From the NCBI GenBank assembly GCA_004552195.1, contig SFPC01000011.1, positions 1 through 31,780 of the forward strand: DNA of 31,780 nt, read 5' to 3'. Of the stretch, positions 2,204-22,138 are shown piece after piece (within the stretch, counting starts at the first letter, position 1; every line of letters begins with the position of its first letter). The translations under genes and the position numbers were made by a program. The stretch is from Bacteroidales bacterium (lineage in GTDB: Bacteria; Bacteroidota; Bacteroidia; Bacteroidales; Bacteroidaceae). The notes beneath the pieces were generated by a model, which was not told the origin of the DNA, ran no database searches, and was given only the letters and a program-made list of their open reading frames with translations.

Positions 2204-2529
2204 ACAACAACCACTGACAACGACGACAGCACATGGCAACCGTAAGAAATTGTCTGAAATTGTTTCAAGTTGTCGTCATTTCTCATCTACAACAACAGGG
2301 ACAACAATAACAACTGCTGGCAACGCCTATCATGTTGTCTTTTGTTGTATAAGTTGTCGTCTATTCTCATCTACAACAACAGGAACAACAATAACAACTG
2401 CTGGCAACGCCTATCATGTTGTCTTTTGTTGTATAAGTTGTCGTCATTTCTCATCTACAACAACAGGAACAACAATGACAACTGCTGGCAACGCCTATCA
2501 TGTTGTCTTTTGTTGTATAAGTTGTCGTC
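2204..2529. repeat. three 84-bp tandem repeats with ACAAC/GTTGT phased motifs
   Basis: Units start at 2269, 2353 and 2437, each exactly 84 bp, with a partial fourth (GTTGTCGTC) at 2521-2529. Units differ from each other at only about three positions each, so the amplification is recent. Within each unit ACAAC and its complement GTTGT recur about every 9-10 bp (for example 2292, 2301, 2310, then GTTGT at 2334, 2344, 2353) and can pair as a hairpin. A looser ACAAC/GACGAC stretch precedes them at 2204-2228. The array fills the gap between the DUF2851 stop and the thioesterase start, both on the minus strand, so it would be transcribed as a 3' UTR or spacer. Because 84 is divisible by three, open frames run through it, but they do not look like genes. 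Confidence 0.9.
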
Positions 2530-2538
2530 TGGTTATAT

Positions 2539-3837
2539 TCAACGGCCTTTGCGCAGATATTCCATACCGAAGCGGCAACGCAGGCAGTCTTTGCGGTCAC
2601 AATAATGTTGTCGCAGCTGGATGAGGGCCTGACTATCGGCGGCGTGCGCCACGGCCACACCCGCGCGTTCCCAGCACCGTGTGATGTAGTTGCGCTCCGG
2701 CGGCATGGACTCCAGCAGGTTGAAAGCGCGCTCACACAGCGTTTCGTCCATCCGGCTACGCCCGTAGGCGAAAAGCAGGGGTACAGCGGTATTGATTACC
2801 AACAGATTGAGCGAAGCCGTTTGCAAAACCTTGTCGGCCTCCACCGATGGCGCGCCAAAGGCATAGTGCGTACGCCAATAAGGCGTTGCTCCCACGCGGA
2901 ACAGGGCATGCAGCGATTTGAGGTCCGTTGTTTCCAACAATCGCGAAAAGTCCAGCTTGCGCTCCACATAAAGACGGGTCAGTTGCGACAGCCGCAGATA
3001 GGGAAAGTTCTGCGGGCGCAACCGGCCGAACTTCCACAGTGACCGGCTCACGGGATGCAATCCGAACTTGTGTTGCAGAAAGCGATACTCCTGCTGCAAA
3101 CGGCAGAAATGGTCATCGCGTTGGGCGGGCTCCAACCGCTCGTCGTCCAGCAGTCCGGCCTGTCCCATAAAGAAAGCCTCCACCTGAAATTCCGAGTCGC
3201 GGTGTTTTCCGATGTCCGAGGGTTGGATGGTAAAGGCCCATTGCTCGAAAGCGTCCGCGTTGGTGCCAAATCCGAAGTTGCGGGCCAGCGTAATGAAAAA
3301 CGCCCTTTCCCAATCGCCCTCGGTACGCTGCAAATAGTTCTCAATGCGCTGCATCTTCGTTTCGAGCCTTTCCACCGTCAGCCGGCTCATCCAGCTGTGG
3401 ATGGTCAGGGGTGCTATTTGGGGAATGACGCGATAACAGGGCGGATAGGTTTCCTCCGCCCGCAACTCCCGGTAGTTGGCCATCAGCTGCGGCGGCACCT
3501 GCAGGGCGAGTTGGGGCGGCAGTTTACCGTCGGCGGTTCGGGCCGCCGCATCGACCTTCCCCACCACGTGGAGTATCACGTTGTTGTAAGCCGGGTCGTT
3601 CTCATGCCGATGTCTGAACCAGTCGGAAGCCAGCTCGTGCACTTCCACGTTGCCGGCCCACAGCACACCGTCAATTCTCACTTTGGCATTGAAAAAGTCC
3701 GGCCCGGCATTGACGAGGTTGTGTACGCCGGGGTCTATCACTTCGATGCGTTGCCCTTGGTCGCCGCGAAGTGACGCGGTACCGTAGAGTCGGTGTTGCC
3801 AAACGTAATGGAGCATGTATTCCATGTTTTCTTCCAT
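2539..3837 (-). CDS. DUF2851 family protein
   Basis: A 432-residue soluble protein of the DUF2851 family, common in Bacteroidota and of unknown function. Recognisable features are the N-terminus MEYMLHYVWQHRLYG, the segment DFFNAKVRIDGVLWAGNVEVH, which is reminiscent of nuclease-like folds but is not proof of activity, and a C-terminal cysteine cluster in HYCDRKDCLRCRFG. I chose the ATG at 3837, not the upstream in-frame GTG at 3894, because a good promoter (TTGG, 19 bases, TACCTTTG) lies between them; the ATG at 3825 is also possible. Its stop codon is 9 bp from the 84-bp repeats. It is divergent from mnmG. Confidence 0.85.
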   Translation of the reverse strand: MEENMEYMLHYVWQHRLYGTASLRGDQGQRIEVIDPGVHNLVNAGPDFFNAKVRIDGVLWAGNVEVHELASDWFRHRHENDPAYNNVILHVVGKVDAAARTADGKLPPQLALQVPPQLMANYRELRAEETYPPCYRVIPQIAPLTIHSWMSRLTVERLETKMQRIENYLQRTEGDWERAFFITLARNFGFGTNADAFEQWAFTIQPSDIGKHRDSEFQVEAFFMGQAGLLDDERLEPAQRDDHFCRLQQEYRFLQHKFGLHPVSRSLWKFGRLRPQNFPYLRLSQLTRLYVERKLDFSRLLETTDLKSLHALFRVGATPYWRTHYAFGAPSVEADKVLQTASLNLLVINTAVPLLFAYGRSRMDETLCERAFNLLESMPPERNYITRCWERAGVAVAHAADSQALIQLRQHYCDRKDCLRCRFGMEYLRKGR

Positions 3838-3851
3838 ATTGGTGAAACGGA

Positions 3852-3882
3852 CAAAGGTAGGGCATCTTCCCAGAAAATCCAA
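3852..3882 (-). promoter_or_regulatory. Bacteroidota-type promoter for the DUF2851 gene
   Basis: Read on the minus strand: -33 element TTGG (3882-3879), 19-base spacer, -7 element TACCTTTG (3859-3852). This is a close match to the phylum consensus TTTG-N19-TAnnTTTG. The expected transcript start is only a few bases before the ATG at 3837. The rest of the 306-bp gap 3838-4143 holds no gene that I can see. Confidence 0.75.
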
Positions 3883-4048
3883 GGGGTTCACCACTTTCTT
3901 TGTCTATTCTTCCCCGTTGGCTCGGACGAGGCGACATCGAGAAGGTGGCCGGACGAAGGGATGGGACGGAGGGTTTACCCGTAACGTGCAGATGGATTTC
4001 TGTTACAGCAATTTGAAGGATGGAGGGTGTAACTCTGATAAAAACTCG

Positions 4049-4056
4049 TACTTTTG
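4049..4056 (+). promoter_or_regulatory. -7 box upstream of mnmG
   Basis: TACTTTTG matches TAnnTTTG and is followed by TCC, as in many Bacteroidota promoters. It lies about 90 bp upstream of the mnmG ATG. No convincing TTTG is found at the -33 spacing, so this is a moderate call. Confidence 0.45.
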
Positions 4057-4143
4057 TCCCGGTTAACCCGGCCGGACTGCGTGGGCGCATGGCAAAAGCC
4101 CCACTTACCCACCCTGCCGCCGGGATTCTATTTCCTACAAGTT

Positions 4144-6021
4144 ATGAGTACTATTTTTAAATACGATGTGGTGGTGGTAGGTGCCGGCCATGCCGGCTGT
4201 GAAGCAGCATCGGCCGCTGCCCGCATGGGAGCGGAAACCTGCCTCGTCACCATGGACATGAACAAGGTGGCTCAGATGAGCTGCAACCCGGCCGTGGGCG
4301 GAATAGCCAAGGGCCAGATTGTACGTGAAGTGGACGCGCTCGGCGGAGGCATGGGCGAGGTGACGGATGCCACGGCCATACAGTTCCGCATGCTGAACCG
4401 CTCAAAAGGACCGGCCATGTGGAGTCCCCGGGCGCAGTGCGACCGCACACGGTTCATCACCACATGGCGCCAACGGCTGGAACAGACGGAGCATTTACAC
4501 ATTTGGCAGGACGAAGTGACGGAGGTACTGACGGAAAACGGTGAAGTGACCGGCGTACGTACCATTTGGGGAGCAACACTGTTGGCTCGCGCCGTGGTCA
4601 TTACGGCGGGCACCTTCCTGCGTGGCTTGATGCACATCGGACGTCGCCAAGTGGCTGGCGGACGCTGCGCGGAGCCGGCTGCGGCCTTCCTCACGCAAAG
4701 CATAGAGGCGTTGGGCATTCGCTCGGCGCGAATGAAAACGGGCACACCCGTTCGCATCGACAAACGGTCGGTGCATTTGGAAGAAATGACGGAACAACCG
4801 GGCGAAACGGACTACCACCGTTTTTCATACATCAGTCCTTTGCGGCCACTACCGCAGCTTCCGTGCTGGACATGCGAAACGAATGCGGAAGTTCACGCCG
4901 TGCTACGCTCAGGATTGGCGGATTCACCGCTTTACAACGGACAAATCCAAAGCATTGGTCCGCGCTACTGTCCCAGCATCGAAACGAAAATCGTTACCTT
5001 TCCCGACCGCGACCGTCATCCGCTGTTCCTGGAACCTGAGGGGTTGGACACGAACGAACTTTACCTGAATGGTTTTTCATCGAGTTTACCGATGAATATT
5101 CAGATAGAATCCTTGCGTCGAATGCCCTGCTTCCGCGATGTACGCATCTACCGTCCGGGCTATGCCATTGAATATGATTTCTTCGACCCCACGCAGCTGC
5201 ATCACACGTTGGAAACGAAGAAAATCGGAGGTCTGTTCTTTGCCGGACAAGTGAACGGCACCACGGGCTATGAAGAAGCAGCGGGACAAGGACTGGTAGC
5301 CGGTATCAACGCCGCGCTGAAGTGTGGCGGCGGAAAGGAATTCACGCTGCGCCGGGACGAGGCTTACATCGGCGTACTCATCGATGATTTGGTTACGAAA
5401 GGGGTGGACGAACCTTACCGTATGTTCACCTCGCGCGCGGAGTACCGTATTTTGTTACGACAGGACAATGCGGACATCCGCCTCACGCCCTATGCCATGC
5501 AACTCGGCTTGTGCTCGGAAGAACGCCGTAAGCGATTTGAGGCAAAGCGCGAAAACATCGGTCAAATCATAGACTTTTGCAAGACCTTCCCCGTGAAGGC
5601 TCCACGCATCAATCCTTTCTTGGAAAGACTTGGGGCTACCCCACTCCACGGCGGCTGCAAATTGTACGATCTCATCAACCGGCCTCAAATCACGCTGCAC
5701 AATCTGGCTAAGGAGATTGAAACGTTCGGCAAGTTCCTGCAATCAATCGAAACAGATGCCGAAGAAACGATTGAAGCGGCAGAAATCGAAATGAAGTACC
5801 ATGGCTACATTGCCCGCGAACGGGCCTTGGCCGACAAGATGCAGCGTTTGGAAAATATTAAAATACGAGGTCGTTTCAAGTATGCCGAAATCACGCAGCT
5901 GAGCACGGAGGCGCGCCAAAAGCTCGAAGCCATCAATCCGGAAACTTTGGCGCAAGCAGGCCGCATTCCGGGAGTGTCGCCCAGCGACATCAGTGTATTG
6001 TTGGTTTTGCTCGGAAGATAG
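4144..6021 (+). CDS. mnmG: tRNA uridine-5-carboxymethylaminomethyl modification enzyme MnmG (GidA)
   Basis: FAD-dependent enzyme that, with MnmE, adds the carboxymethylaminomethyl group at C5 of wobble uridine 34 in certain tRNAs. The 625-residue length is typical. Motifs visible in order: dinucleotide-binding VVVVGAGHAGCEAA at the start, CNPAVGGIAKGQIVREVDAL, the GTTGYEEAAGQGL flavin motif, SRAEYRILLRQDNADIRLT, and the C-terminal helical MnmE-binding domain ending SPSDISVLLVLLGR. I chose ATG 4144 because the family N-terminus begins right there; an in-frame start at 4054 would add 30 unrelated residues and would overlap the probable promoter. It heads the plus-strand run with apt and uvrC. 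MnmG often lies near oriC in other bacteria, which fits the parS-like site 140 bp downstream. Confidence 0.97.
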   Translation: MSTIFKYDVVVVGAGHAGCEAASAAARMGAETCLVTMDMNKVAQMSCNPAVGGIAKGQIVREVDALGGGMGEVTDATAIQFRMLNRSKGPAMWSPRAQCDRTRFITTWRQRLEQTEHLHIWQDEVTEVLTENGEVTGVRTIWGATLLARAVVITAGTFLRGLMHIGRRQVAGGRCAEPAAAFLTQSIEALGIRSARMKTGTPVRIDKRSVHLEEMTEQPGETDYHRFSYISPLRPLPQLPCWTCETNAEVHAVLRSGLADSPLYNGQIQSIGPRYCPSIETKIVTFPDRDRHPLFLEPEGLDTNELYLNGFSSSLPMNIQIESLRRMPCFRDVRIYRPGYAIEYDFFDPTQLHHTLETKKIGGLFFAGQVNGTTGYEEAAGQGLVAGINAALKCGGGKEFTLRRDEAYIGVLIDDLVTKGVDEPYRMFTSRAEYRILLRQDNADIRLTPYAMQLGLCSEERRKRFEAKRENIGQIIDFCKTFPVKAPRINPFLERLGATPLHGGCKLYDLINRPQITLHNLAKEIETFGKFLQSIETDAEETIEAAEIEMKYHGYIARERALADKMQRLENIKIRGRFKYAEITQLSTEARQKLEAINPETLAQAGRIPGVSPSDISVLLVLLGR

Positions 6022-6158
6022 ATATTTTCTTCCCAACCCACATCACCGCTTTAGGAACGGGCACAGCGAGATGCTTACTTGAAGTAAAACTTTAAGGATA
6101 AAAGCCATTAAAACCCGCCCATGGCCTCAAAAAGCCGTTGAACGCGAGTTTTTGTTAG

Positions 6159-6174
6159 CGTTCCACGTGAAACA
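6159..6174. promoter_or_regulatory. parS-like ParB-binding site, copy 1
   Basis: CGTTCCACGTGAAACA contains the core GTTCCACGTGAAAC. The widespread bacterial parS consensus is TGTTnCACGTGAAACA, so only the outermost first base differs. It lies in the intergenic region between mnmG and apt, 35 bp before the apt ATG. An identical 14-base core occurs in polA at 13293-13306. ParB itself is not encoded in this window. Confidence 0.75.
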
Positions 6175-6208
6175 AAGCTACACTTTATAATTCAAAATCA
6201 AGTATAAA

Positions 6209-6745
6209 ATGAACCAAGAATTGTTGTTAAACAACTTACGCAACGTGCCGGATTTCCCGAAGCCGGGCATTCACTTTAAAGACGTCAGCACGCTATTCAA
6301 AAACCCCGATTGCATCAAGGAAATGCTGGATGAATTGGTACGCCTCTACCAAAATAAAGGAATAACGAAGGTGGTGGGCATCGAGAGCCGGGGCTTCGTC
6401 ATGGGAGCCATGCTGGCCGAAAAACTGGGGGCGGGTTTCGTCATGGCACGCAAGCCCGGAAAACTTCCGGCCGAAACACGCAAAGCAACGTACCAGAAGG
6501 AGTACGGCTATGACACGATAGAAATCCACACAGACGCCATCAATTCAGACGATATCGTGCTCATCCACGACGATCTCCTCGCCACAGGTGGTTCGATGCT
6601 GGCTGTCTACAACTTGGTGCAGCAATTCCATCCCCGACAAACGTTTATCAATTTTCTCATTGAGCTGAAAATGGAAGGTTTGGAAGGACGGAAATTCCTG
6701 GGCAAGGACCTCGACATCACAACCCTGCTCACCATCACGGAATAA
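6209..6745 (+). CDS. apt: adenine phosphoribosyltransferase
   Basis: Salvages adenine: adenine plus PRPP gives AMP and pyrophosphate, in the cytoplasm. The 178 residues match the usual length for the family. The N-terminus has the family pattern RNVPDFPKPGIHFKDVSTLF, then GIESRGFVMGAMLA, and the PRPP-binding loop VLIHDDLLATGGSM with the acidic pair at residues 121-122. The start ATG at 6209 is unambiguous. A strong rho-independent terminator follows 10 bp after the stop codon, so apt probably ends a transcription unit. Confidence 0.97.
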   Translation: MNQELLLNNLRNVPDFPKPGIHFKDVSTLFKNPDCIKEMLDELVRLYQNKGITKVVGIESRGFVMGAMLAEKLGAGFVMARKPGKLPAETRKATYQKEYGYDTIEIHTDAINSDDIVLIHDDLLATGGSMLAVYNLVQQFHPRQTFINFLIELKMEGLEGRKFLGKDLDITTLLTITE

Positions 6746-6754
6746 CCGCATTTG

Positions 6755-6794
6755 TCCCTGCGTCTGTACGATGCGCGTACACGCAGGGATTTTT
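6755..6794 (+). terminator. rho-independent terminator after apt
   Basis: TCCCTGCGT at 6755 pairs with ACGCAGGGA at 6781-6789, with an additional GTAC/GTAC pairing inside, followed by TTTTT at 6790-6794. It is placed just after the apt stop codon. Confidence 0.85.
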
Positions 6795-6875
6795 GTTTCA
6801 AACAACTTCAGGCTTCGATGAAAGCATTGGGATTGTCAGTGCACCAAACAAAGCATCGCTATTTTCTAATCCACC

Positions 6876-8702
6876 ATGCGCAGCAAAGAAGAAACGGAAA
6901 AATATCTCAAGGGCATCGTCCTGAATTTACCGGAAACGCCGGGCTGTTACCAGTACCTGGACGAGAACGGCACCATCATCTATGTGGGGAAAGCAAAGAA
7001 CCTCAAGCGGCGCGTAAGCTCGTACTTCAACAAGGACCAACAGACGCGCAAAACCACACTGCTAGTTTCGCACATCCGCGACATACGCTACGTAGTGGTG
7101 CGCACCGAGGAGGATGCCCTGCTGTTAGAAAATAATCTCATCAAGCGGTACAAGCCTCACTACAACGTGCTCTTGAAAGACGACAAAACGTACCCATCCA
7201 TCGCAGTTACGACAGAGTACCTTCCACGCATCTTCAAAACACGCCAACGCGGCAAGCGGGGGGCAGTGTACTTCGGGCCGTACAGCCACGTGCCGACCAT
7301 GTATGCCCTGTTGGAGCTGTGTCGCGACCTGTACCGGCCGCGTCCGTGCCACACGCCCATGACGCGCGAAGGAGTGGAGCAAGGGAAATACCAGGTGTGC
7401 CTGGACTACCACATTCATCGGTGTAAAGGCCCCTGTGTGGGTCGCCAGAGCCGCGAGGACTACCTCCGCTGCATCGAGGCGTGCAAGGAAATCCTGAAGG
7501 GCAACACGGCGGAGGTGCAACGCCGGATGCGCGATGAAATGGTGGCTTTGGCGGCGGAACTGCGTTTTGAAGAGGCGCAGGAAATCAAGGAACGTTACGA
7601 ACTGATTGAACGTTTCCGCGCACGCAGCGAAGTGGTGTCGGCCGTACTCCACAACATCGACGTTTTCTCCATAGAGAGCGAGGACAAGGTGGCGTACATC
7701 AACTACCTGCACGTCACAAACGGCTGCATCAACCAGGCTTTCACCTTTGAATACAAGAAAAAGCTGGAAGAAACCGACGAGGAACTGCTGCGCCTCGGCA
7801 TCGTGGAAATGCGCGAGCGGTATCACAGCGCGTCGCGCGAGATTGTGGTACCTTTCCTCGTCGACCTGCCCGACGACATGGTGCAGCAAACAGTGCCACA
7901 GAAGGGCGATAAGAAAAAACTCCTGGAGTTGTCCCGCCTGAACGTGAAGCAGTACAAATTTGACCGCCTGAAACAGGCCGAAAAGCTCAATCCGGAACAA
8001 AAACAGACGCGGCTGCTGAAGGAGATACAGCAGGATTTGGGACTGCCCCGCCTGCCGTTGCGCATCGAGCTGTTTGACAACTCTAACATCAGCGGAACGG
8101 ATGCTGTGGCGGCCTGTGTGGTATTCGACAAACTGAAACCGGCGAAAAAGGAGTACCGAAAATACATCATACGCACCGTGGCGGGCCCTGACGACTACGC
8201 TTCCATGCGCGAGGTGGTGGGCCGCCGTTACAGTCGGCTGCAAGCCGAGGGACTGCCCCTGCCCGACCTCATCATTGCCGACGGCGGACGCGGCCAGATG
8301 GAGGTGATACGCAGCGTGGTGGAGGATGAACTGGGACTCTCCATCCCCATCGCCGGACTGGCCAAGGACGACCGCCACCGCACACGCGAGTTGCTCTACG
8401 GATTTCCGCCGGCCACCATCGGACTGCGGCCCGAGAGCCAACTGTTCCGCACCCTCACCGCCATGCAGGACGAGGTGCACCGCTTTGCCATCACCTTCCA
8501 CCGCGACCTCCGCTCCAAGCGACAAACAAGTTCGGAACTCGACGCCCTTCCCGGCGTTGGACCGGCCACCAAGAGCCGTTTGTTGAAACAATTCAAGAGT
8601 GTGAAGCGCATCAAGGAGGCTTCGATTGAAGAACTGCAAGCTTTGCTTGGCCGGGTGCGTGGGGAAAAATTGCATGCGTGCCTGCACGATGCAGCGGAAT
8701 AA
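6876..8702 (+). CDS. uvrC: excinuclease ABC subunit C
   Basis: Makes both incisions around DNA lesions in nucleotide excision repair together with UvrA and UvrB. The 608 residues carry the full domain set: N-terminal GIY-YIG nuclease (TIIYVGKAKNLKRRV, about residues 15-100), four cysteines at 158, 175, 183 and 187 (RPCH, QVCL, HRCKGPC) in the spacing of the iron-sulfur site known in UvrC, a UVR UvrB-binding helix pair near 220-250 (ELRFEEAQEIKERYELIERF), the RNase H-like C-terminal nuclease (ELFDNSNISGTDAVAACVVF), and a terminal double helix-hairpin-helix (LDALPGVGPATKSRLL). The start ATG at 6876 fits the family N-terminus. It is followed after 20 bp by dtd. Confidence 0.97.
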   Translation: MRSKEETEKYLKGIVLNLPETPGCYQYLDENGTIIYVGKAKNLKRRVSSYFNKDQQTRKTTLLVSHIRDIRYVVVRTEEDALLLENNLIKRYKPHYNVLLKDDKTYPSIAVTTEYLPRIFKTRQRGKRGAVYFGPYSHVPTMYALLELCRDLYRPRPCHTPMTREGVEQGKYQVCLDYHIHRCKGPCVGRQSREDYLRCIEACKEILKGNTAEVQRRMRDEMVALAAELRFEEAQEIKERYELIERFRARSEVVSAVLHNIDVFSIESEDKVAYINYLHVTNGCINQAFTFEYKKKLEETDEELLRLGIVEMRERYHSASREIVVPFLVDLPDDMVQQTVPQKGDKKKLLELSRLNVKQYKFDRLKQAEKLNPEQKQTRLLKEIQQDLGLPRLPLRIELFDNSNISGTDAVAACVVFDKLKPAKKEYRKYIIRTVAGPDDYASMREVVGRRYSRLQAEGLPLPDLIIADGGRGQMEVIRSVVEDELGLSIPIAGLAKDDRHRTRELLYGFPPATIGLRPESQLFRTLTAMQDEVHRFAITFHRDLRSKRQTSSELDALPGVGPATKSRLLKQFKSVKRIKEASIEELQALLGRVRGEKLHACLHDAAE

Positions 8703-8708
8703 GTTAGT

Positions 8709-8716
8709 ACATTTGC
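8709..8716 (+). promoter_or_regulatory. possible -7 box before dtd
   Basis: TACATTTG matches TAnnTTTG and is followed by CAG; it ends 6 bases before the dtd ATG, so a transcript from it would be nearly leaderless. No good -33 element is seen, so it may be a chance match or a weak internal promoter. Confidence 0.35.
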
Positions 8717-8722
8717 AGCATT

Positions 8723-9175
8723 ATGAGAGCAGTAATCCAACGAGTAAGTCGTGCCTCCGTCTGCATCGAAGGCCGCGTAAAGTCAGCCATCGGGCCGGGC
8801 TTTCTCATCCTCCTCGGCATTGAAGAGGCCGACACGCGCGAAGATGCCGACTGGCTTTGCAAAAAAATCAGCGGCCTGCGCGTTTTCAACGACGAAAACG
8901 GCGTGATGAACCGCAGCATTTTGGACACCAACGGCGAGGCCCTCGTCGTGAGCCAGTTCACCCTCATGGCATCGTACAAAAAGGGCAACCGCCCCTCCTA
9001 CATCCGCGCAGCGGGCCACGCCCACGCCATTCCCCTCTACGAATATTTTGTGAAAAACCTCGAAACGCTCCTGCCACACCCCGTGGGCACGGGCGAATTC
9101 GGGGCCGACATGCAAGTGGAGCTGGTCAACGACGGCCCGGTCACCATCTGCATGGACACGAAAAACAAAGAATAA
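8723..9175 (+). CDS. dtd: D-aminoacyl-tRNA deacylase
   Basis: Removes D-amino acids (and glycine mischarged on tRNA-Ala) from tRNA as a homodimer. The 150 residues are full length. The two active-site motifs are present: SQFTL at residues 77-81 and the GPVT motif at 138-141 (NDGPVTICMDT), together with the conserved KGNRPSY segment. The N-terminus MRAVIQRVSRASV is that of the family, so the start is firm. It lies between uvrC and a MazG-like gene, an arrangement common in Bacteroidales. Confidence 0.96.
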   Translation: MRAVIQRVSRASVCIEGRVKSAIGPGFLILLGIEEADTREDADWLCKKISGLRVFNDENGVMNRSILDTNGEALVVSQFTLMASYKKGNRPSYIRAAGHAHAIPLYEYFVKNLETLLPHPVGTGEFGADMQVELVNDGPVTICMDTKNKE

Positions 9176-9205
9176 AAAACACCCCTCTTATTCCCTTTCA
9201 GAACC

Positions 9206-9553: not shown

Positions 9554-9569
9554 AAAACATATCCCCATC

Positions 9570-10708: not shown

Positions 10709-10796
10709 GCAAAAAGTCCGCCACTTGTGCATCACAAGTCCAGGACTATTTTTTACAAGTCGGCGAGTAGAAAAAAATAGTCCAGGACTTTTTGCA
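10709..10796. repeat. 21-bp module array B (four modules)
   Basis: Modules begin at 10713, 10734, 10755 and 10776, exactly 21 bp apart. The second begins ACAAGTCCAGGACTATTTTTT with 20 or more bases of module, the third ACAAGTCGGCGAGTAG, and the fourth AATAGTCCAGGACTT. The array is homologous, gap-free, to 117-200. GCAAAAAGTCC (10709-10719) and GGACTTTTTGC (10785-10795) are perfect inverted ends, and modules two and four are themselves nearly inverted, so the array can fold strongly. It lies between the convergent genes deoC and the polyprenyl synthetase gene. No gene is visible in 10602-11041. Confidence 0.8.
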
Positions 10797-10872: not shown

Positions 10873-11030
10873 GACGACAACGTAAAACAACGAAAGACAA
10901 CTTTTAAGCATAATCTGTTGTCACAAGTTGTCTAAGTTGTCGTCCACAAAAGAATTGACGACAACGAAAAACAACAAGAAACAACGTCAAAGCGAGAAAC
11001 GTTGTTTCTTGTTGTTATCGTTATTGTCGA
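10873..11030. repeat. 10-bp-phased ACAAC/GTTGT array with 18-bp perfect hairpin
   Basis: ACAAC occurs at 10877, 10887 and 10897, its complement GTTGT at 10917, 10927 and 10936, ACAAC again at 10961, 10971 and 10981, and GTTGT at 11001 and 11011. The spacing is 9-10 bp and the sense alternates. AACAACAAGAAACAACGT (10970-10987) pairs perfectly with 10999-11016 across an 11-base loop; read on the minus strand this is directly downstream of the polyprenyl synthetase stop and is followed by a T-rich stretch, so it may terminate that gene. GACGACAAC/GTTGTCGTC are shared with the 84-bp repeats at 2269-2529. Confidence 0.8.
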
Positions 11031-12044: not shown

Positions 12045-12055
12045 CGAATTTATCA

Positions 12056-14909: not shown

Positions 14910-14917
14910 TACACATA

Positions 14918-14960
14918 AAAAAATCTCCCCTGCGAAAGACTATCGCAGGGGAGATTTTTT
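14918..14960. terminator. bidirectional terminator between polA and the DUF5723 gene
   Basis: An 18-base arm at 14918-14935 (A-run then TCTCCCCTGCGA) pairs perfectly with 14943-14960 (TCGCAGGGGAGATTTTTT) over a 7-base loop. The A-run and T-run make it work in both directions, as expected between convergent genes. Confidence 0.93.
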
Positions 14961-14998
14961 AAATAGAAGCAGGCGGTATGAGAACCGCTACATGCTGA

Positions 14999-16429
14999 TT
15001 AGAAAGGTATGGACATACCGAGCGAGATGTTGCCGTTGGCACTCTTCAAGGGGATGCACTGCTTGCTCAGCTTGCCGAAGAAGCGGTCAGTACCAATGAA
15101 GAAGTTGAAGTGTTTGGCGTGCAGGTCAAGCACCATACCACCCGTTACACCGGTCGACGTGAAGGACAGATTGGCCGTATATTCCAACCACTTCAACGGA
15201 CGTACCGTGGCGGAGAACATACCCGAGTGCCAGCTGTATTGGCCGGCCAGGCGACCGGAGTACAGGAAGCCGAAGCGCAGGTTGCGGTAAGCGGGCAGGG
15301 TGTACTCGGCTCCTACGTTGATGGTGGCTGCCAGGGCACGGGTGTCCGTCTTCTGAGCCTGTTCATCCTCGTAAATGGAGAAAATTTCCTCCAAGTCGTC
15401 GCCGATGGCTTCGAGCTGGTCGTCAATCTGGTTCGTTTCCGTCTTCAGTCCGCCGGCATAAACATCCTCTTCAAAGCCGTCGAACGTCCAGGTGCCTGCT
15501 GAAGAAGCCTGATAGGCATCCTTCCAGCTGATAAATCCGAGGTCGGTGATGGCGGCACTGAGTCGGAGGTCTTCCGTCAGGTCGTAGGTGGCACCGAGGT
15601 CGAAGGCCAGACCGAAGCCGGAGAGGCCGCCCTTAAACTCGTCGAAACCGGAGATACGACGGCGCTCCGTGCGGTTGCCGTTCTCGTCCACATAGTTCTT
15701 GTCGGCGCTTTCATACTCCAAGGTGCTCTTCATGAGCGCGGCAGAAGCCTTGATGTTACCGTCAATGTTCCACTGGTCATCGCTCATGTGCAGGTTGAGT
15801 TTGTCCACGTTGAGGTCGACATAACCAAGGCCGAAGAGGAACTTCATCTTACCACCCACGGTCAGCTTATCGCCGATTTTGTGCGAGTGGCCCAGGCCCA
15901 GTTCCACGTAGTTTTCCGTGCGGATGCCAAGGTTGTCGATGCTGTAGTCCTCCTTTGCTCCGGTTTCCTTCATAAACTCAAAGAGCGACTTCGGGAGCAC
16001 CAATCCTGTGCTCGAACGGAGGTTCATCTCAATGACATTGACACCTCCCCAGCCGCGCCAGGCCACACCGGCGAGCTGATACTTGAGGTGAACAGAGAGC
16101 TTGTTCTTGTCCTTCAGGTCGCCCAGGAAGTCTGCGGCGTCCACGTTAGGGTGCATGAAGGTAGTGTACTGCCGACCCTCCATCCCGTAGCCTTGCCACG
16201 TGGGGTCCATTTTATACACAAAATTCTCCAAGCCGAAGTTACCCGTCAGGCCCAGGTTGAAGTTACCGAACACCAAGGGCATGGACATATACGGCGCGTC
16301 GAGCAGAGCAGGGTTCATTTCGTGCTTATAGTTCGACGTCTGCATGAAATAAGTGGAGCGAAGCTCCTGCGCAGCGGCCGGGAAAGCGGTTGCGGTAGCC
16401 AACAATAAGGCTGCTATCTTGTTTTTCAT
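14999..16429 (-). CDS. DUF5723 family outer-membrane beta-barrel protein
   Basis: A 476-residue protein with a signal peptide (MKNKIAALLLATATAFPAAAQ, cleavage after AAA or AQ) and many alternating aromatic/hydrophobic strands (for example NFNLGLTGNFGLENF, LTVGGKMKFLFGLGYVDLNV, LRFGFLYSGRLAGQYSW), ending in phenylalanine as outer-membrane barrels do. The pattern and the early ELRSTYFMQTSNYKHEMNPALL match the DUF5723 family of Bacteroidota, whose function is not established; the barrel recalls FadL/PorV-like proteins. It follows an unrecognised lipoprotein gene by 40 bp on the same strand, and the two are probably one operon and perhaps one surface complex. Confidence 0.85.
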   Translation of the reverse strand: MKNKIAALLLATATAFPAAAQELRSTYFMQTSNYKHEMNPALLDAPYMSMPLVFGNFNLGLTGNFGLENFVYKMDPTWQGYGMEGRQYTTFMHPNVDAADFLGDLKDKNKLSVHLKYQLAGVAWRGWGGVNVIEMNLRSSTGLVLPKSLFEFMKETGAKEDYSIDNLGIRTENYVELGLGHSHKIGDKLTVGGKMKFLFGLGYVDLNVDKLNLHMSDDQWNIDGNIKASAALMKSTLEYESADKNYVDENGNRTERRRISGFDEFKGGLSGFGLAFDLGATYDLTEDLRLSAAITDLGFISWKDAYQASSAGTWTFDGFEEDVYAGGLKTETNQIDDQLEAIGDDLEEIFSIYEDEQAQKTDTRALAATINVGAEYTLPAYRNLRFGFLYSGRLAGQYSWHSGMFSATVRPLKWLEYTANLSFTSTGVTGGMVLDLHAKHFNFFIGTDRFFGKLSKQCIPLKSANGNISLGMSIPF

Positions 16430-16469
16430 TGTGAAATATCTGTGAAGTTATAGAAATGTGTCTGCATCA

Positions 16470-18308
16470 TCAGTTAAAGTCGGCAATTACTTTACCGGTG
16501 AGGTAAAGACGCACATCGGCAAAGCGGAGATACTGCGTAGAGCACAGCTCGTGAACCTTGCCATTGACGTCATTGGCAGCCTGCACGTTGAATTTGAGGC
16601 GATCCATCTTCTGGAGCAGCGTGGGGTCGTCGAGCGTGGCAGAGATTTCCACCTCTGTTTCCTTCACCGTCGAGCCGTCGCCGGCGGGAACCTTGATGGG
16701 GCTGAATTTGATGCCGGGAATAACCTTATTGTTGACGTCGTAGGCCGTGATAGTAGCTTCGAGGTCAAGCGGAATGGTGTTCTGCGCCTTAGCTTTCACC
16801 ATCACACCCTCAGCCTGGTAGTCTTCCAAATCCTCCACCATGCTGTCAGTGCTATCCTTGTACACAATGGTCAAGCCCTTGTCGAATTGGAAAGGCACAT
16901 ACACCTTATAGTCGGCAGAAGCATGGTAGTCGTGACCCAGCTTGATGGTATATTCCTTGTCCTGCACGCTCAGTTTGCCACCTGTCAGGTCCACGCGGAT
17001 TTCGTCGGGCAGCTTCTCGATGAGGGTGCTGAGCTTATCGGCCTTGGCCGTTACTGCGCCCGCGGGGAGCGTGGGATATTCCGGATCGTAGGGCTTTCCG
17101 TTTTGGTAGTAGTACACCGTGTTGTGCTGCTTGTCCTCTACTTGCGTCACAGGCAGGCTCACGTTCTTCGTGAAGCCCTGTGCGCCTTTCTTCACCGAGG
17201 TCAGTTCGCCGCTCAGGTTCAGACCCACGGGAATGTCGGAAAGGTCAGCCGTAAACTTCAGCGTCGGGTTGGCAGCACCAATCTTCACAGCATCGTCGTT
17301 GAGGAAGTCGGGCAGGGAAGAAGCAATGTCAATCGGATCCACGGTGGGGTTGATTTCGGGGCTGAACTTACCCGTTACCTGTTCGATATCAATTTTGGTG
17401 CTGTTGCCTAATGAGAGCGACAGATAGATGTCGGCATAGTCGTCTTGGCTCAGCTCGAAGCTGCCGGTCGTCTTGAAGTAAACCGTACCCTTGATGCCGG
17501 CTTGGAGCACCGACTGTCCTTTGTCGTCCTTACCGAACACCAGCATACCGTCCTTCGGTGCGCCGTATCCCTTCGTGTCCACCTTGTCGGCCACGATGGA
17601 GCAGATAATGCCGTCGGCGGGAATAACGAGTGCATCCTTGTGCGTGAGCACATTATCCTTCATGGTCCAGCCTGCGGGCCAGGAATTGTCGCGCACCTGC
17701 AAGATGCTCGGAATAGTGATGCTGAAGTTCTCGATTTTTTCAATACCAAACTTCACGCCGGGGCTCACGAGGGTGTGAATTTTCAGTGAAACCTTCATGT
17801 CTTTCACATCAGCCGAACTGATGTAGCTCACTTCTGCCGGAACTTCTACCGACACATCCACATCGGCATGACCTTCTGCCGTACCGCTGAAGGAAAGATT
17901 GGCATCAACCGGCAGATTAAAACCTTCGGGGAGTTGGTTGGCTACGTCGCCGAGCTGCGCTTTGAGGGAGTTGTAGTCCAGTACGCGCTCTTGGGTTTCA
18001 ATATTTGATTCCTTAAACGAAGCCGACACTTCATTCACATGGATGTTGAAACTCGTAGTGCCGTCTTCCACAAGGTAATAGAGATTGTTGGCATCAAGCT
18101 TCACGGATTCGTCCAAATCCAGGATATCCCCGAGAAGAATCTTCTCCGTGTTGCCCATTTTCAGCTTCAGCCCGTTAGAGCCAAGCCCCATCGTCATGTC
18201 CACGCTGTCCAAGTCGTAGTCGTCGCTCACGCAACCCGTGGTCAACATGGCAGTGCCAGTACATAAAGTACCGATGGCAATCAAATGCTTGAAAGAAAGG
18301 ATTGACAT
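16470..18308 (-). CDS. unrecognised large lipoprotein
   Basis: A 612-residue protein with a type II signal peptide: a hydrophobic stretch and lipobox LTTGC with the lipidated Cys at residue 26. The following VSDDYD is acidic, like the surface-export signal of Bacteroidota lipoproteins, so surface exposure is plausible. The body is beta-rich, with repeated hydrophobic strands and proline/glycine turns (for example VSVEVPAEVSYISSADVKDMKVSLKIHTL, broken here as an illustration of strand pattern), and ends LYLTGKVIADFN. Short related-looking themes such as a strand followed by a KxGDIL or LDIPxGL turn recur, but I cannot name a domain. It is the first gene of a two-gene operon with the DUF5723 barrel and has a -7 box TATATTTG upstream (minus, 18416-18409). 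Function unknown. Confidence 0.85.
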   Translation of the reverse strand: MSILSFKHLIAIGTLCTGTAMLTTGCVSDDYDLDSVDMTMGLGSNGLKLKMGNTEKILLGDILDLDESVKLDANNLYYLVEDGTTSFNIHVNEVSASFKESNIETQERVLDYNSLKAQLGDVANQLPEGFNLPVDANLSFSGTAEGHADVDVSVEVPAEVSYISSADVKDMKVSLKIHTLVSPGVKFGIEKIENFSITIPSILQVRDNSWPAGWTMKDNVLTHKDALVIPADGIICSIVADKVDTKGYGAPKDGMLVFGKDDKGQSVLQAGIKGTVYFKTTGSFELSQDDYADIYLSLSLGNSTKIDIEQVTGKFSPEINPTVDPIDIASSLPDFLNDDAVKIGAANPTLKFTADLSDIPVGLNLSGELTSVKKGAQGFTKNVSLPVTQVEDKQHNTVYYYQNGKPYDPEYPTLPAGAVTAKADKLSTLIEKLPDEIRVDLTGGKLSVQDKEYTIKLGHDYHASADYKVYVPFQFDKGLTIVYKDSTDSMVEDLEDYQAEGVMVKAKAQNTIPLDLEATITAYDVNNKVIPGIKFSPIKVPAGDGSTVKETEVEISATLDDPTLLQKMDRLKFNVQAANDVNGKVHELCSTQYLRFADVRLYLTGKVIADFN

Positions 18309-18408
18309 ACCTGTAATGTTTTAGGTTAATATTAAGATGTAATTTTAAAAAAGCAAAGGATTTAAAAATTCTGTTTTGATTTTGCGAAAAAAATGTCTGT
18401 ATTTGCTG

Positions 18409-18416
18409 CAAATATA
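18409..18416 (-). promoter_or_regulatory. -7 box for the lipoprotein/DUF5723 operon
   Basis: Minus-strand TATATTTG matches TAnnTTTG and is followed by CAGC. It is 100 bp upstream of the lipoprotein ATG, leaving an A/T-rich leader. The -33 region is not convincing. Confidence 0.5.
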
Positions 18417-18477
18417 AGCCTTTTAAATAAAAAAGTTGAGTTTTGTTTAAAAAAATAATGATGATTGCAAATCAAAC

Positions 18478-18507
18478 TTTCATTTTCTGATAAAAGTTGT
18501 ACATTTG
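18478..18507 (+). promoter_or_regulatory. promoter of the cobalamin riboswitch and btuB
   Basis: TTTC at 18478-18481, an 18-base spacer, and TACATTTG at 18500-18507, followed by CGG. The transcript would begin right at the 5' side of the riboswitch aptamer. Confidence 0.65.
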
Positions 18508-18665
18508 CGGCGGAAACGGATAAGGGAAACGGGTGAAAGTCCCGTGCAGTCCCGCTGCTGTAAGTTCCATTTTTGTCGGTTCACATTGGCCACTGCCCGC
18601 CTGACTCCAAGGCGAGCGGGAAGGCGGACCGGACAGGAACAAGCCAGAAAACCTGCCGTAGTTCC
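18508..18665 (+). ncRNA. cobalamin (B12) riboswitch
   Basis: The conserved blocks of the cobalamin aptamer are present in order: GGGAAACGGGTGAAAGTCCC (18524-18543), GCAGTCCCGCTGCTGTAAG soon after, and the closing B12 box AAGCCAGAAAACCTGCC (about 18641-18657). It lies directly upstream of a TonB-dependent receptor gene, the classical target. In Bacteroidota such elements usually block translation of the receptor when B12 is plentiful. The exact ends are approximate. Confidence 0.93.
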
Positions 18666-18746
18666 GGGCGCAGACTGCGCCGCCCCGAAGCCCCGAGGAG
18701 GGCCAAAGGGGAATACATCTTACACTTTTTATCATCCATCTTTGGC

Positions 18747-20789
18747 ATGAAGTTTCTCCTGCGCTCCACCATGTGCCGGAGTATGCTCGTTGGCATCTGC
18801 CTGTGGCCGGCCCAAGCCATGGCCGTGGCCGGCTTCCCCCTGCCCTGCCCCACCCAGCCCGACACCCTCGGCACGGCGGAGGTAACTGCCCCGCGCCGGC
18901 CTGCCGCACTCAGCTCCCCCACCCCCGTGCAACGGCTCGACTCCGCCGACTTCCGACGGCAAGGCATCACCTCCGTGGCCGATGCCCTGCTCCGCATGGC
19001 CGGCGTCAACCTGCGCGACTACGGCGGGGCGGGCGGACTGAAAACGGTGAGCGTGCGCGGCCTCGGAGCGGCACACACCGCCGTGGCCTACGACGGACTC
19101 TGCCTCTCGGACCACCGACGCGGCGAGATCGACCTGCAACGCTACCACCCGGAACTGCTCCGGAGCATCGAACTGCACCCCTTGGGCGAAAGCTCCCTGC
19201 TCTGCCCCGTGCGAAACCTCTCGGCAGCGGCAGTGGTCAGCCTCTCCGCCTTCCACCCCGACACGCTGCGGCGCGGCCTCGGCGGCACCGCCACGCTCAA
19301 GCAGTCGGCCTTCGGCAGCTACCACGCACTGGGCTCCCTCGAAGGCCGCACGGGCCAGCGGTCGGCGGCCTCGCTCTGCGGCGATGCCTTCTGGAGCCAA
19401 AACGACTACCCTTTCCGCGTGGCAAACGGCGTGGCCTCCACCCGTCTGCGGCGCACCAACAGCGAGATGCGCGGCGGCTCGGCCGAAGGGAGGTGGTGGC
19501 AGCGAATGGACAATGGGCTGTGGGAGAGCACGGCGGGATTTTACCGCAACAACCGCCAACTGCCAGGACAGGTCATACTGTATGTCAACGAGAACCACGA
19601 ACGACTGAAGGAAACCTCCGCCTTTGCCCAGACGCGGCGCACTTTCCGCCCCGGCGGGCGCACCGAGTGCTTTGCCGCCCTGCGTTACCAATGGCAGCAC
19701 ACGGCCTACAGCGACATCGATGCGCAGTACCCCGGCGGCGCGTTGCGCCAACGCTACGTGCAGCAGGAGGTCTATGCCACCGGCGGCCTGTCGCGCAGCC
19801 TCACTCCTTGGCTCCGTCTGGCCTATGCCTCGGACCTTTCCCACGCCTGGCTCCACAGCAACCTCCGGCAGGACAACCGTGCGCTGCGCACGGGCTGGCT
19901 GCAGAGCCTCTCGGCACAGGTCGTGGCGGGCCGCTTCAAACTGCTGGTGCGCGGGGCTGACTTGTGGTACCGCGACGAGAGCCGCACCGCCGCCTCGGCT
20001 GCGGATGCAGGCCGCCGCACACGCCATTACCACGCCTTCACACCCATGGCCTCGGCCTCCTACCGGCTGTGGCACGCCCCGGTGAGTATGTATCTGCGGG
20101 CTGGATGGCAGCAGAGTTACCGCCTGCCCACGTTTTCCGAAGCCTACTTTGACCACCTGGGGCAGGCTGCCCTGCGTCCCGAGCGGACCAATCAGTGGAA
20201 CGGTGGCCTCACGCTCTCGGCGCAGCCGGCTGCCTGGTGGCCCGGGCTCACGCTGACGGTGGACGGCTACACGAACCGCGTGAGCCACCGCATCGTCTCC
20301 GTGCCCTACACGCTCTTTGTATGGCGCACGCTCAACATGGGGCGGGTCGATGCCCACGGACTGGATGCCACCCTCTCCTCTCACTGGCAGCCCGCGCCGC
20401 AGTGGACGTTGCGGCTCACGGCCAACTATTCTCTTCAGCGCGTGGCGGACCGCACCTCGCCGGGTGCTGACACCTATGGCAACCAGCTGGCTTACACGCC
20501 GCGCCACAGCGGGGCGGCCTCCGTGGGATGCGAAACGCCCTGGCTGTCGCTCACAGCCCATTGCCGCTATGCTTCCGAACGGTGGAGCACCAACGAGCAT
20601 CTGCCCACCACTTCTCTGCCGGCCTACTGCGAATGGGGCTTTACCATGGCGCGTTCGTTCGCCCTGAGCCATTGCCAGCTGGACCTCCGCGCCGACCTGC
20701 TCAACGCTTTCAACCGCCGCTACGAAGTGGTGCGCCGCTACCCCATGCCGGGCCGGGCCTACGCGCTCTCGGCCACGCTCCGCTTCTGA
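18747..20789 (+). CDS. btuB: TonB-dependent vitamin B12 receptor, BtuB-like
   Basis: Outer-membrane transporter that takes up cobalamin with energy from TonB. The 680 residues comprise a signal peptide (to about residue 28), a TonB-box-like DTLGTAEVTA, a plug domain (RLDSADFRRQGITSVADALLRMAGV, then TVSVRGLGAAHTAVAYDG) and a 22-strand-type barrel ending in LSATLRF. There is no N-terminal carboxypeptidase-like domain as in SusC proteins. I start at ATG 18747; an in-frame ATG at 18573 lies inside the riboswitch and cannot be the true start. The substrate call rests on the cobalamin riboswitch and the BtuG-like neighbour. G+C is markedly high here (44 of 60 bases in 18901-18960). Confidence 0.93.
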   Translation: MKFLLRSTMCRSMLVGICLWPAQAMAVAGFPLPCPTQPDTLGTAEVTAPRRPAALSSPTPVQRLDSADFRRQGITSVADALLRMAGVNLRDYGGAGGLKTVSVRGLGAAHTAVAYDGLCLSDHRRGEIDLQRYHPELLRSIELHPLGESSLLCPVRNLSAAAVVSLSAFHPDTLRRGLGGTATLKQSAFGSYHALGSLEGRTGQRSAASLCGDAFWSQNDYPFRVANGVASTRLRRTNSEMRGGSAEGRWWQRMDNGLWESTAGFYRNNRQLPGQVILYVNENHERLKETSAFAQTRRTFRPGGRTECFAALRYQWQHTAYSDIDAQYPGGALRQRYVQQEVYATGGLSRSLTPWLRLAYASDLSHAWLHSNLRQDNRALRTGWLQSLSAQVVAGRFKLLVRGADLWYRDESRTAASAADAGRRTRHYHAFTPMASASYRLWHAPVSMYLRAGWQQSYRLPTFSEAYFDHLGQAALRPERTNQWNGGLTLSAQPAAWWPGLTLTVDGYTNRVSHRIVSVPYTLFVWRTLNMGRVDAHGLDATLSSHWQPAPQWTLRLTANYSLQRVADRTSPGADTYGNQLAYTPRHSGAASVGCETPWLSLTAHCRYASERWSTNEHLPTTSLPAYCEWGFTMARSFALSHCQLDLRADLLNAFNRRYEVVRRYPMPGRAYALSATLRF

Positions 20790-20847
20790 TGCCCCTCGGC
20801 CTGCCGGCATCTTCTTCGGAATTATTCTTTTCCAAAATCATATTGTT

Positions 20848-21930
20848 ATGTCAAAAATTCTCCAATCGGCAGCCCTCGCGCTGCTTCTCCCCTTCGTCTT
20901 CACGGCCTGCTCCGACGACGACAACACGCCCGACCCTGTCATCGACCCTGTGCCCACACCGGCCACGGCGGCCTATGTCGTGAACCAGGGAAACATGTAC
21001 GGCGGTGTGGCCGGCAGCATCGACTGCATTGACCTGGAGTCGGGCGCCACGACCTCCGGCCTCTTTTTCAACGTCAACGCGCAGGCGCTGGGCGACTCGC
21101 CGCAGCAGGCCGTGCGCCACGGCAACCGCATCTACCTGCCTGTTTACGGCTCTAACCTCCTGTGGGTGGTCAATGCCTCCACGCTCCGGATTGTAGCCAG
21201 CGTGCCGGTCAATGCTCCCGAGGCCGTGTGCGGTGCCGGGGAATATGTCTTCGTGGCGGGCAACGACGGTATCGTAACGCGCATCGACACGCTCAACTGC
21301 CAGCCCTCAGCCACCGTGGCGGTAGGGCCTAACCCCGCCGGCATCGTGGCGGTGGACAGCCTGGTATATGTCAGCATCAGCGATGGCTACAACTATGCCA
21401 ACAACTACGAAAACGGCAAGAAGCTCGCCGTGGTCCATGCACGCACCATGCAGGTGGAGCGCAACATCGCCGTGGGACTCAACCCGGGCGCGCTGTGTGC
21501 CAACTCGCGCGGCGAGGTGTTCGTCCTGACGCGCGGCAACTACTTCGATGTGTTGCCCAAGGTGCAGAAGGTGTCGGCGGACGGAGACGTGAAGGACTAC
21601 TGCGATGGCTCACTCATCACGCTCGCGAACGACTGCCTGTATGTGGTGAACGCCACGGCGGACTATGCCAACAACACGAGCGAAGTGAGCCTCTCCACGT
21701 ACAACACGCTGACCGACGAGGAACTTCCCATCACGCTCCCGGCGGAGTCCGTGCCGGGCTGGCCCAATGCCATCGACGTGGAACCCGTGACCGGGCAGAT
21801 TTTCATCAGCTCGGACAAAGGTCCGTCGGACTACGACAAATCGGGCTACGTCTACCGCCTCGCCCCTTGGGGAGAACTGCTCCAACGCTACGACGTTGGC
21901 ATCCATCCCTTCGGCGTAGTGTTCAAATAG
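20848..21930 (+). CDS. beta-propeller surface lipoprotein, BtuG-like (YncE/DUF5074 type)
   Basis: A 360-residue lipoprotein: lipobox FTAC with Cys at residue 21, followed by SDDDN, a typical surface-export signal of Bacteroidota. The body is a repeat of beta-propeller blades (AAYVVNQGNMYG, IYLPVYGSNLLWVVNASTLRIV, GEYVFVAGNDGIVTRIDT, AVVHARTMQVERNIAVGLNPGAL, CLYVVNATADYA, GQIFISSDKGPSDYDKSGYVYRL), about seven. In Bacteroides, BtuG is a seven-bladed surface propeller that binds B12 very tightly and works with BtuB; position 58 bp after a riboswitch-controlled btuB makes the same role likely here. The assignment is by fold and context, not by a binding-site match. Confidence 0.82.
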   Translation: MSKILQSAALALLLPFVFTACSDDDNTPDPVIDPVPTPATAAYVVNQGNMYGGVAGSIDCIDLESGATTSGLFFNVNAQALGDSPQQAVRHGNRIYLPVYGSNLLWVVNASTLRIVASVPVNAPEAVCGAGEYVFVAGNDGIVTRIDTLNCQPSATVAVGPNPAGIVAVDSLVYVSISDGYNYANNYENGKKLAVVHARTMQVERNIAVGLNPGALCANSRGEVFVLTRGNYFDVLPKVQKVSADGDVKDYCDGSLITLANDCLYVVNATADYANNTSEVSLSTYNTLTDEELPITLPAESVPGWPNAIDVEPVTGQIFISSDKGPSDYDKSGYVYRLAPWGELLQRYDVGIHPFGVVFK

Positions 21931-21962
21931 GCGCAAACCCGCCAGGGTAATTGCTCCAATGC

Positions 21963-22046
21963 TTCACAAGCCCAGGACTTCGTTTCACAAGTCCGGGAGT
22001 TCGCTTTACAAGTCCGGGAGTTGTTCGCACAACTCCCGGACTTGTT
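21963..22046. repeat. 21-bp module array C with perfect 17-bp hairpin
   Basis: Cores beginning ACAAG or ACAAC lie at 21966, 21987, 22008 and 22029, exactly 21 bp apart. The last one is inverted. As a result ACAAGTCCGGGAGTTGT (22008-22024) and ACAACTCCCGGACTTGT (22029-22045) form a perfect 17-bp stem with the four-base loop TCGC. No T-run follows. The cores are the same family as arrays at 117-200 and 10713-10796. It lies 33 bp after the BtuG-like gene. Confidence 0.88.
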
Positions 22047-22063
22047 AGCTTCCTAAAGGTTGT

Positions 22064-22138
22064 TATAGATTGCTATAGCTTTTTTATAGTTATCTATAGC
22101 TATCTATAGCCTTCTATAGCAATCTATAGCTATCTATC
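22064..22138. repeat. 10-bp-phased TATAG array
   Basis: TATAG occurs at 22064, 22074, 22085, 22095, 22105, 22115 and 22125, with a degenerate TATCC at 22135. The best unit is ATCTATAGCT (and variants), repeated head to tail with a 10-bp period. CTATAG is palindromic, so each unit reads the same on both strands at its centre. No gene is seen here. Just after it, at 22153-22172, a GCGCGC-TCTTC-GCGCGC hairpin is found. Confidence 0.88.

Follow-up and report, generated by a model that had tools for sequence, protein, structure and literature searches.

The DNA analyzed here is a 31,780-nucleotide stretch from a Bacteroidales bacterium (contig SFPC01000011.1 of assembly GCA_004552195.1), hereafter the window, and our subject is the short repeats that lie between its genes, above all four arrays of small palindromes spaced at 21 bp. 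By Pfam, the genes are those of an ordinary chromosome piece (dprA, mnmG, uvrC, dtd, polA and a polyprenyl synthetase gene, together with genes for a TonB-receptor plug protein and for ABC transporters). The closest relatives compared are Prevotellamassilia-like: the DUF2851 protein of the window is 76% identical in L014 and 69% identical in P. timonensis, and its mnmG DNA is 80–81% identical over almost the full length in three genomes. In all counts below, "genus" and "family" are those of P. timonensis (genome G001), whose family, the one sampled, we take to be the Bacteroidaceae in the sense of GTDB. The four arrays, none of them assigned to a strand, are the following.

141 to 193: array A, AGTCCNGGACT-like palindromes at 141, 162 and 183, with 10-bp A-rich spacers; fold z -1.8 and -3.8
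10715 to 10789: array B, palindromes at 10715, 10737, 10758 and 10779, between converging genes; fold z -7.8 and -5.6
21969 to 22042: array C, palindromes at 21969, 21990, 22011 and 22032; fold z -7.4 and -7.2
27662 to 27720: array D, 2.8 copies of GTGTGAAAAGTTTCACA-type palindromes; fold z -3.9 and -5.5

The sequence-only reading that preceded this analysis had reported modules every 21 bp at three loci and again at 27662, and both reports held. Exact ACAAGTCC occurs five times in the window, with two copies 21 bp apart at locus C only, and a more fitting description of the three loci is an 11-bp palindrome, AGTCCNGGACT, phased at 21 bp, with seven steps of 21 bp and one of 22 bp; the scan for such palindromes also picked up a single chance pair, separated by 51 bp. 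In array D, GTGTGAAA-type modules lie 21 bp apart at 27666, 27687 and 27708, and the palindrome GTGTGAAAAGTTTCACA is unrelated in sequence to those of A–C, so that two unrelated motifs in the window share a 21-bp pitch. Array B has 27-nt arms that are 85% complementary, the final two palindromes of array C make a 17-bp hairpin, and folding is less clear in array A than in the other three.

We compared the recurrence of 5- and 6-mers in the 3,927 intergenic bases of the window with 100 dinucleotide shuffles, and found that 6-mers recurred at 84, 21, 10, 30, 42 and 20 bp (also at 67 and 13 bp) more often than in every one of the shuffles. When an 84-bp tandem array described below was reduced to one copy, 32 recurrences were left at 21 bp (shuffle mean 1.3, maximum 6), 23 at 10 bp (mean 1.4, maximum 6), 15 at 30 bp (maximum 7) and 10 at 42 bp (maximum 8), and the 9 at 20 bp fell within the shuffle maximum of 11. 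The proposal that the intergenic motifs of the window are phased was thus borne out insofar as the periodicities exceed shuffles, but the peaks come from two different kinds of object, the 21-bp modules and an ACAAC/GTTGT element, which follow no one rule.

Doubled ACAAGTCC units were absent from 58 genus genomes by exact search, AGTCC-type palindrome pairs (with at most one mismatch in all) at 21–22 bp occurred only in the window within 1.3 Mb of sampled DNA, and no copy of the window's 21-bp family was found outside it in the DNA searched. None of the arrays in the window and six further loci matched Rfam at the gathering score; weak miRNA-like matches at 10951–11029, 22254–22352 and 22010–22044 lay far under it.

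The pitch itself is more widespread. We measured it in DNA picked without regard to repeats, comprising a family sample (40 genomes, at most 20 kb each, 643,677 bases), a genus sample (four genomes, 200 kb each, of which 39 of 40 stretches, or 780 kb, entered), 15 DUF2851 loci, 20 phylum genomes whose kinship to the family is not given, and Escherichia coli; the intergenic location of the repeats follows from the construction of these samples. Among arrays called by Tandem Repeats Finder (TRF), a period of 20–22 bp was found in 18 of 40 in the family sample, with none at 17–19 or 23–25 bp, in 14 of 86 in the genus sample, with five at 17–19 bp, three at 23–25 bp and more at 8, 13 and 16 bp, and in 5 of 25 at the DUF2851 loci; 50 kb of E. 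coli gave no intergenic array. An ungapped test of the best offset of each gap, which is independent of TRF, placed 12 of 40 passing gaps at 21–22 bp in the family sample (259 gaps examined; each round of shuffling gave 6.7 over all offsets), 12 of 79 in the genus sample and 8 of 27 at the DUF2851 loci. In the phylum sample, none of 22 gaps fell at 20–22 bp, and in 200 kb of E. coli none of 83 gaps did so at 21–22 bp, only two gaps having passed the threshold.

Pooled family DNA, which includes an extra 400 kb from two array-bearing genomes, had its best offset at 21–22 bp in 42 of 171 passing gaps, and in 42 of the 62 whose best offset lay between 15 and 30 bp; without the extra 400 kb, 32 gaps stay at 21 or 22 bp. 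This is the commonest tandem offset in the family intergenic samples, and arrays at this pitch, counting also 42–44 bp, occur in 10 of the 40 family genomes. Offsets of 10–11 bp were not in excess (7 of 171 passing gaps, below the 23 at 8–9 bp), and we therefore regard the two-turn pitch as general in the family and the one-turn pitch as not. A different sequence is found at 21–22 bp in each lineage, including unrelated palindromes such as TTACAAACTTTGTAA in L002 and GAGGAGATATCTTC in L014, and successive cores, taken from arrays detected by offset, are spaced by 22 bp in all 8 steps in G225, 12 of 13 in G118 and 6 of 6 in G061. The sequence-only reading had posited different sequences on one pitch and an excess at 10, 21 and 84 bp in relatives; of this, the 21–22-bp part stood, the 10–11-bp part did not, and the 84-bp value proved accidental. 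Palindromic units were no clearer a mark of intergenic arrays (17 of 92) than of arrays in open reading frames (ORFs; 10 of 69, some of which are ACAAC arrays within spurious ORFs). As a separate observation, positions 16060–16726 of the P. timonensis locus L001 hold large intergenic inverted repeats with 8- and 13-bp tandem units that are quite unlike the window.

One such family could be followed in detail. In G225, a genome in one 4.45-Mb contig, the module TTCACCGCGGTGAA forms arrays at four places within a 220-kb sample, and a 1.4-kb query across one of these arrays retrieved more copies in G225, G089 and G666. The element is about 130 bp long, and 13 copies drawn from the three genomes give a 130-column alignment whose only gap is terminal. 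RNAalifold drew from them a long hairpin, pairing columns 29–56 with 65–92, plus a small, conserved tail hairpin. Scored as drawn by hand (28–56 with 65–93, plus the tail), the hairpin pairs in 89.2% of cells against 82.9% in shuffles, and contains 29 doubly changed cells against 12.0, a count that none of 500 shuffles reached and that fell to 2–7 in slid versions; since the copies are related, such shuffle counts are not probabilities. Self-folding of each module and spacer gave 7 doubly changed cells against 7.0 in shuffles. The pairing of the spacers is visible in the sequences, as in CTAACTAG with CTAGTTAG in G225, and CGTAGGAG with CTCCTACG and TTCACGAT with ATCGTGAG in G666. In this family, then, the two arms pair as one long hairpin that has been kept by compensatory changes. 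Of the 8 positions of the palindromic skeleton TTnAnCnnGnTnAA, all 8 are invariant in module 1, 7 in module 2 and 6 in module 3.

A covariance model of this element, with at most 150 candidates scored per genome and some places counted on both strands, matched 116 times in G225, 129 times in G089 and 77 times in G666, 2–5 times in G238, G663 and G264, and not at all in G212, G646, G118, G061, G065, G107, G001 and G032; it matched nothing in the window. Matches being plentiful in three genomes and absent from eight, the family is lineage-specific, with tens of copies where these were counted (at least 54 of full length among the matches listed for G225). At the L209 locus, the element is retained in G089 with its 22-bp pitch; G238 and G666 lack it next to the same left-hand gene. 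We also noted that it is sparse at about 2.0–3.5 Mb of the G225 chromosome, where one third of the length (three bins) holds 5 of the 54 listed copies.

Arrays favor gaps between converging genes: the genes on either side are known for 45 of them, of which 16 occupy converging gaps, 23 co-directional gaps and 6 diverging gaps, compared with 111 converging among 598 gaps (odds ratio 2.7, p = 0.005). The 52 arrays examined for folding had a mean best-strand fold z of -4.9 against -1.25 in control stretches, with 34 of 52 below -3 compared with 6 of 52 controls, and in 39 of 52 the inverted self-match exceeded that of all 15 shuffles.

The second kind of object in the window is the ACAAC/GTTGT element, a separate inverted-repeat family with boxes at 9–10 bp that is distinct from the 21-bp arrays. 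The ACAAC/GTTGT arrays at 2.2–2.5 kb and 10.87–11.03 kb consist of one element of 70–73 bp, GACGACAAC...GTTGTCGTC, in which GACGACAAC is followed by two more ACAAC boxes, a loop, and a mirror image terminating in GTTGTCGTC, giving three boxes per arm. Its copies, and a further local array, again have no strand assigned.

2204 to 2276: possible diverged copy of the GACGACAAC element, seen only when mismatches are allowed
2267 to 2529: GACGACAAC-type tandem array, three 72-bp units (2289–2360, 2373–2444, 2457–2528), one every 84 bp
10873 to 10945: GACGACAAC element copy 1, three ACAAC, loop, three GTTGT; fold z -6.1 and -5.1
10957 to 11029: GACGACAAC element copy 2, starting 84 bp past the start of copy 1; fold z -7.5 and -8.4
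22064 to 22137: CTATAG local array, steps of 10–11 bp, the only one in the window

Copy 2 retains the boxes, the last one altered, and its spacers differ from those of copy 1. One unit of the 84-bp array folds with z of -1.6 and -4.1. This unit is a 72-bp element plus a 12-bp linker, and it has no 21-bp substructure, its circular self-identity being 0.24 at 21 bp (mean 0.25), 0.39 at 10 bp and 0.36 at 22 bp, so we rejected the suggestion that 84 bp stands for four times 21. A strict 10-bp ACAAC/GTTGT array was not found either: across six window units, including the one at 2204–2276 seen only with mismatches, box steps of 10 bp and of 9 bp number 12 each, and in G032 261 of 264 steps are of 9 bp. 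ACAAC boxes therefore obey no 10–10.5-bp rule, and with 10–11 bp so rare among the family gaps, the idea of a common 10-bp period across motifs was discarded. TATAG, supposed to recur every 10 bp, does so in five steps and takes one of 11 bp (22064, 22074, 22085, 22095, 22105, 22115 and 22125), albeit in a single local array.

The arm pattern of the ACAAC element matched in 7 of the 58 genus genomes, with 94 arms in G032, 17 in G055, 7 in G054, 4 in G003, 2 in G051 and 1 each in G015 and G047; a reversed control pattern matched once. Among 399 family genomes, five matched, all of them already in the genus list (control, 13 matches in 12 genomes), and among 198 phylum genomes none did (control, 4 matches). 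By these controls, the single arms in G015 and G047 are at chance level. In G032, arrays reach 11 units, one every 70–74 bp. In an alignment of ten 73-bp units of L085, variation affects 1 of the 37 box columns and 12 of the 36 others (p = 0.0006, a result favored by the selection of the loci on their boxes), so that, judged from these alignments, the boxes look more constrained than the rest of the element. Between the two arms, second spacers are complementary at 62 of 288 positions (132 with partners permuted within the genome) and first spacers at 174 of 297 (176 when permuted); there is thus no sign that spacers are kept for pairing, although whole copies fold well. When 144 ORFs from the window and 20 other loci were compared all against all, no neighbor gene recurred beside ACAAC copies; the comparison yielded ORFs inside arrays plus three pairs of general families. 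At L230 of G032 (1995–2115), one ACAAC unit is flanked on both sides by inverted repeats similar to TTTACCGGACAGCAATAATA, with a Y1 transposase gene about 160 bases away, an arrangement that may represent nested repeats.

Elsewhere in the window, a Cobalamin riboswitch (RF00174, 80 bits) lies at 18491–18674, at the start of a TonB-dependent receptor gene, and for that reason the receptor is probably a BtuB-like transporter. Two longer inverted repeats, one with perfect 20-nt arms GTGTGAAGGGTTGGTTTTTC at 22255 and 22333 (22255–22352) and one with 19-nt arms at 337 and 369 (337–387), may belong to another intergenic repeat family.

Taking these results together, we lean, with some reserve, toward reading the 21-bp arrays as lineage-specific, dispersed intergenic hairpin elements, resembling repetitive extragenic palindromic (REP) sequences and BrickBuilt, in which the palindromic modules hold a fixed 21–22-bp pitch. 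Such elements would spread as non-autonomous dispersed elements and, as their position suggests, would act at transcript ends as 3′-end hairpins limiting, for both strands, read-through or decay. That the pitch stays even may follow from two demands on each module, to retain its palindromic skeleton and to pair with its mirror counterpart. Two helical turns take 22 bp in double-stranded RNA and 21 bp in DNA, so a two-turn pitch would place all modules on one helical face for a putative reader. By analogy of architecture, arrays A–D would work like the G225 family.

Several observations weigh against this. Covariation was tested in one family, which is not that of the window, on related copies, and compensatory changes can also come from templated repair of DNA quasi-palindromes with no role for RNA. 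A hairpin of modules 1 and 2 had 9 doubly changed cells against 6.4, with 38 of 500 shuffles as high (9 of 500 by covariation score), a signal weaker than that of the long hairpin yet present. Only one of the 13 copies (G225b) has a run of five Ts after the tail hairpin, which is therefore no ordinary intrinsic terminator. As to position, 23 of the 45 arrays lie between co-directional genes, and without the extra 400 kb the counts are 11 converging, 19 co-directional and 4 diverging (11 of 34 converging). The direct-repeat score exceeded the inverted-repeat score in 46 of 52 arrays, which were chosen by direct repeat. Single relatives peak at other offsets (8, 16 and 13 bp in G001; 23, 46 and 8 bp in G051; 9, 18 and 36 bp in G007), and the phylum sample, of kinship not given, had a TRF period of 20–22 bp in 5 of 15 arrays, with three at 17–19 bp and two at 23–25 bp.

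Among known systems, the elements are most like BrickBuilt of Porphyromonas gingivalis, and also like the REP sequences and bacterial interspersed mosaic elements (BIMEs) of other phyla. BrickBuilt is described as a minisatellite or miniature inverted-repeat transposable element of 23-nt direct units with a leader and a tail, present in 19 copies in ATCC 33277 and with homologs in P. gulae (PMC4596501). As in our arrays, it belongs to the Bacteroidales, is intergenic only, and has tandem short units of near length, leader and tail parts and predicted long stem-loops; its description sets it apart, in that a tandem 23-nt direct unit with leader and tail is not what we observed, the units here being palindromic at 21–22 bp, with a tail hairpin in the G225 family. 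Several unrelated families occur here, with tens of copies in the one counted and with covariation shown, which distinguishes them from BrickBuilt as described (PMC4596501). REPs and BIMEs share with our arrays short intergenic palindromes, mainly in co-directional or converging gaps and often forming larger hairpins (PMC3733652). In the same source, GTAG REPs accompany REP-associated tyrosine transposases (RAYTs), for which 8 of 13 array-bearing genomes here gave no match, and CGTC REPs have one 8–9-bp stem with a 4–5-nt loop and no fixed-pitch modules. The ACAAC element likewise terminates in CGTC, but it has three 5-bp boxes per arm with 4–5-nt gaps and no 8–9-bp stem.

A protein-based explanation, in which every module is bound by a rapidly evolving DNA-binding protein of nucleoid, partition or regulatory type whose cooperation along one face of the DNA fixes the two-turn pitch, seems to us unlikely. 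The strict pitch of G061 in spite of differing spacers would suit it, as would the similar pitch with unrelated motifs in many lineages, and the skeleton of the G225 family, invariant at 21 of 24 positions, leaves room for a module-reading protein. Set against these, the variable positions of that family covary between distant modules and not within them, columns were unevenly conserved beyond chance (p ≤ 0.05) in only 5 of 50 arrays, which is no general support, no candidate protein was found, and the 54 listed copies show no strand polarity along the chromosome (permutation p 0.24). Because arm pairing covaries and the local palindromes do not, in the one family examined, a class of hairpin elements is more likely than protein-binding arrays, and to this extent the DNA-binding-protein family put forward by the sequence-only reading gives way. 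We also hold it improbable that all lineages share one system, in which each has its own fast-changing module at a single two-turn pitch and a co-evolving host factor, acting at gene ends, reads one helical face of the DNA or of double-stranded RNA. Still more doubtful are minisatellites, that is, functionless slippage at hairpins with a length preference near 21–22 bp and dispersal by ordinary duplication. The stronger tandem direct identity in most arrays and the mostly even column conservation (45 of 50 arrays not significant) agree with slippage, but many diverged arrays still hold the exact pitch, 13 copies at separate loci retain 130 columns, and the arms covary.

Very unlikely, finally, is that these elements are REPs mobilized by a Y1 tyrosine transposase, in the manner of those in enterobacteria and Pseudomonas. 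The Bacteroidetes do have a TnpA-REP (RAYT) subclass, 2.6, reported to be flanked by unusual structures with copies elsewhere in the genome (PMC6006769), so that both the phylum and the scattered secondary structures are alike. Our search with PF01797 in 13 array-bearing genomes, whose completeness is not established, gave a Y1 match in five (G001, G002, G003, G101 and G177) and none in eight (G225, G118, G061, G065, G107, G006, G051 and G248), which differs from subclass 2.6 as described. Dispersed, multi-copy intergenic palindromes were found, in one family, and a Y1 (HUH) gene flanked by the repeat in the same genome was not. Only 1 of 12 Y1 loci lies beside a 22-bp repeat, a further difference: it is a remnant in G047 (L235, 1501–2039; 21.4 bits, below the cut-off, with one stop) that adjoins a gap scoring best at 22 bp. 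At the remaining 11 loci, no gap had a best offset of 21 or 22 bp, several having 45–84-bp repeats of their own. Mobilization by RAYTs in general is thus not supported. At L226 of G055 (1150–2310), a Y1 transposase gene stands among many palindromic CTGGCTGGAAGCCAG-type repeats, which looks like a REP/transposase unit in a relative.

Narrow word searches of the open-licence PMC literature found no paper describing a class of hairpin elements such as the one we favor. If this reading is true, dominant gut bacteria carry, between their genes, a dispersed class of fixed-pitch hairpin elements for which the literature searched held no description. The annotation of transcript ends would be affected, and these genomes would offer a natural experiment on the reasons for helical periodicity in hairpins, posing the question of what reads or makes a 21–22-bp pitch when the sequence is free to change.

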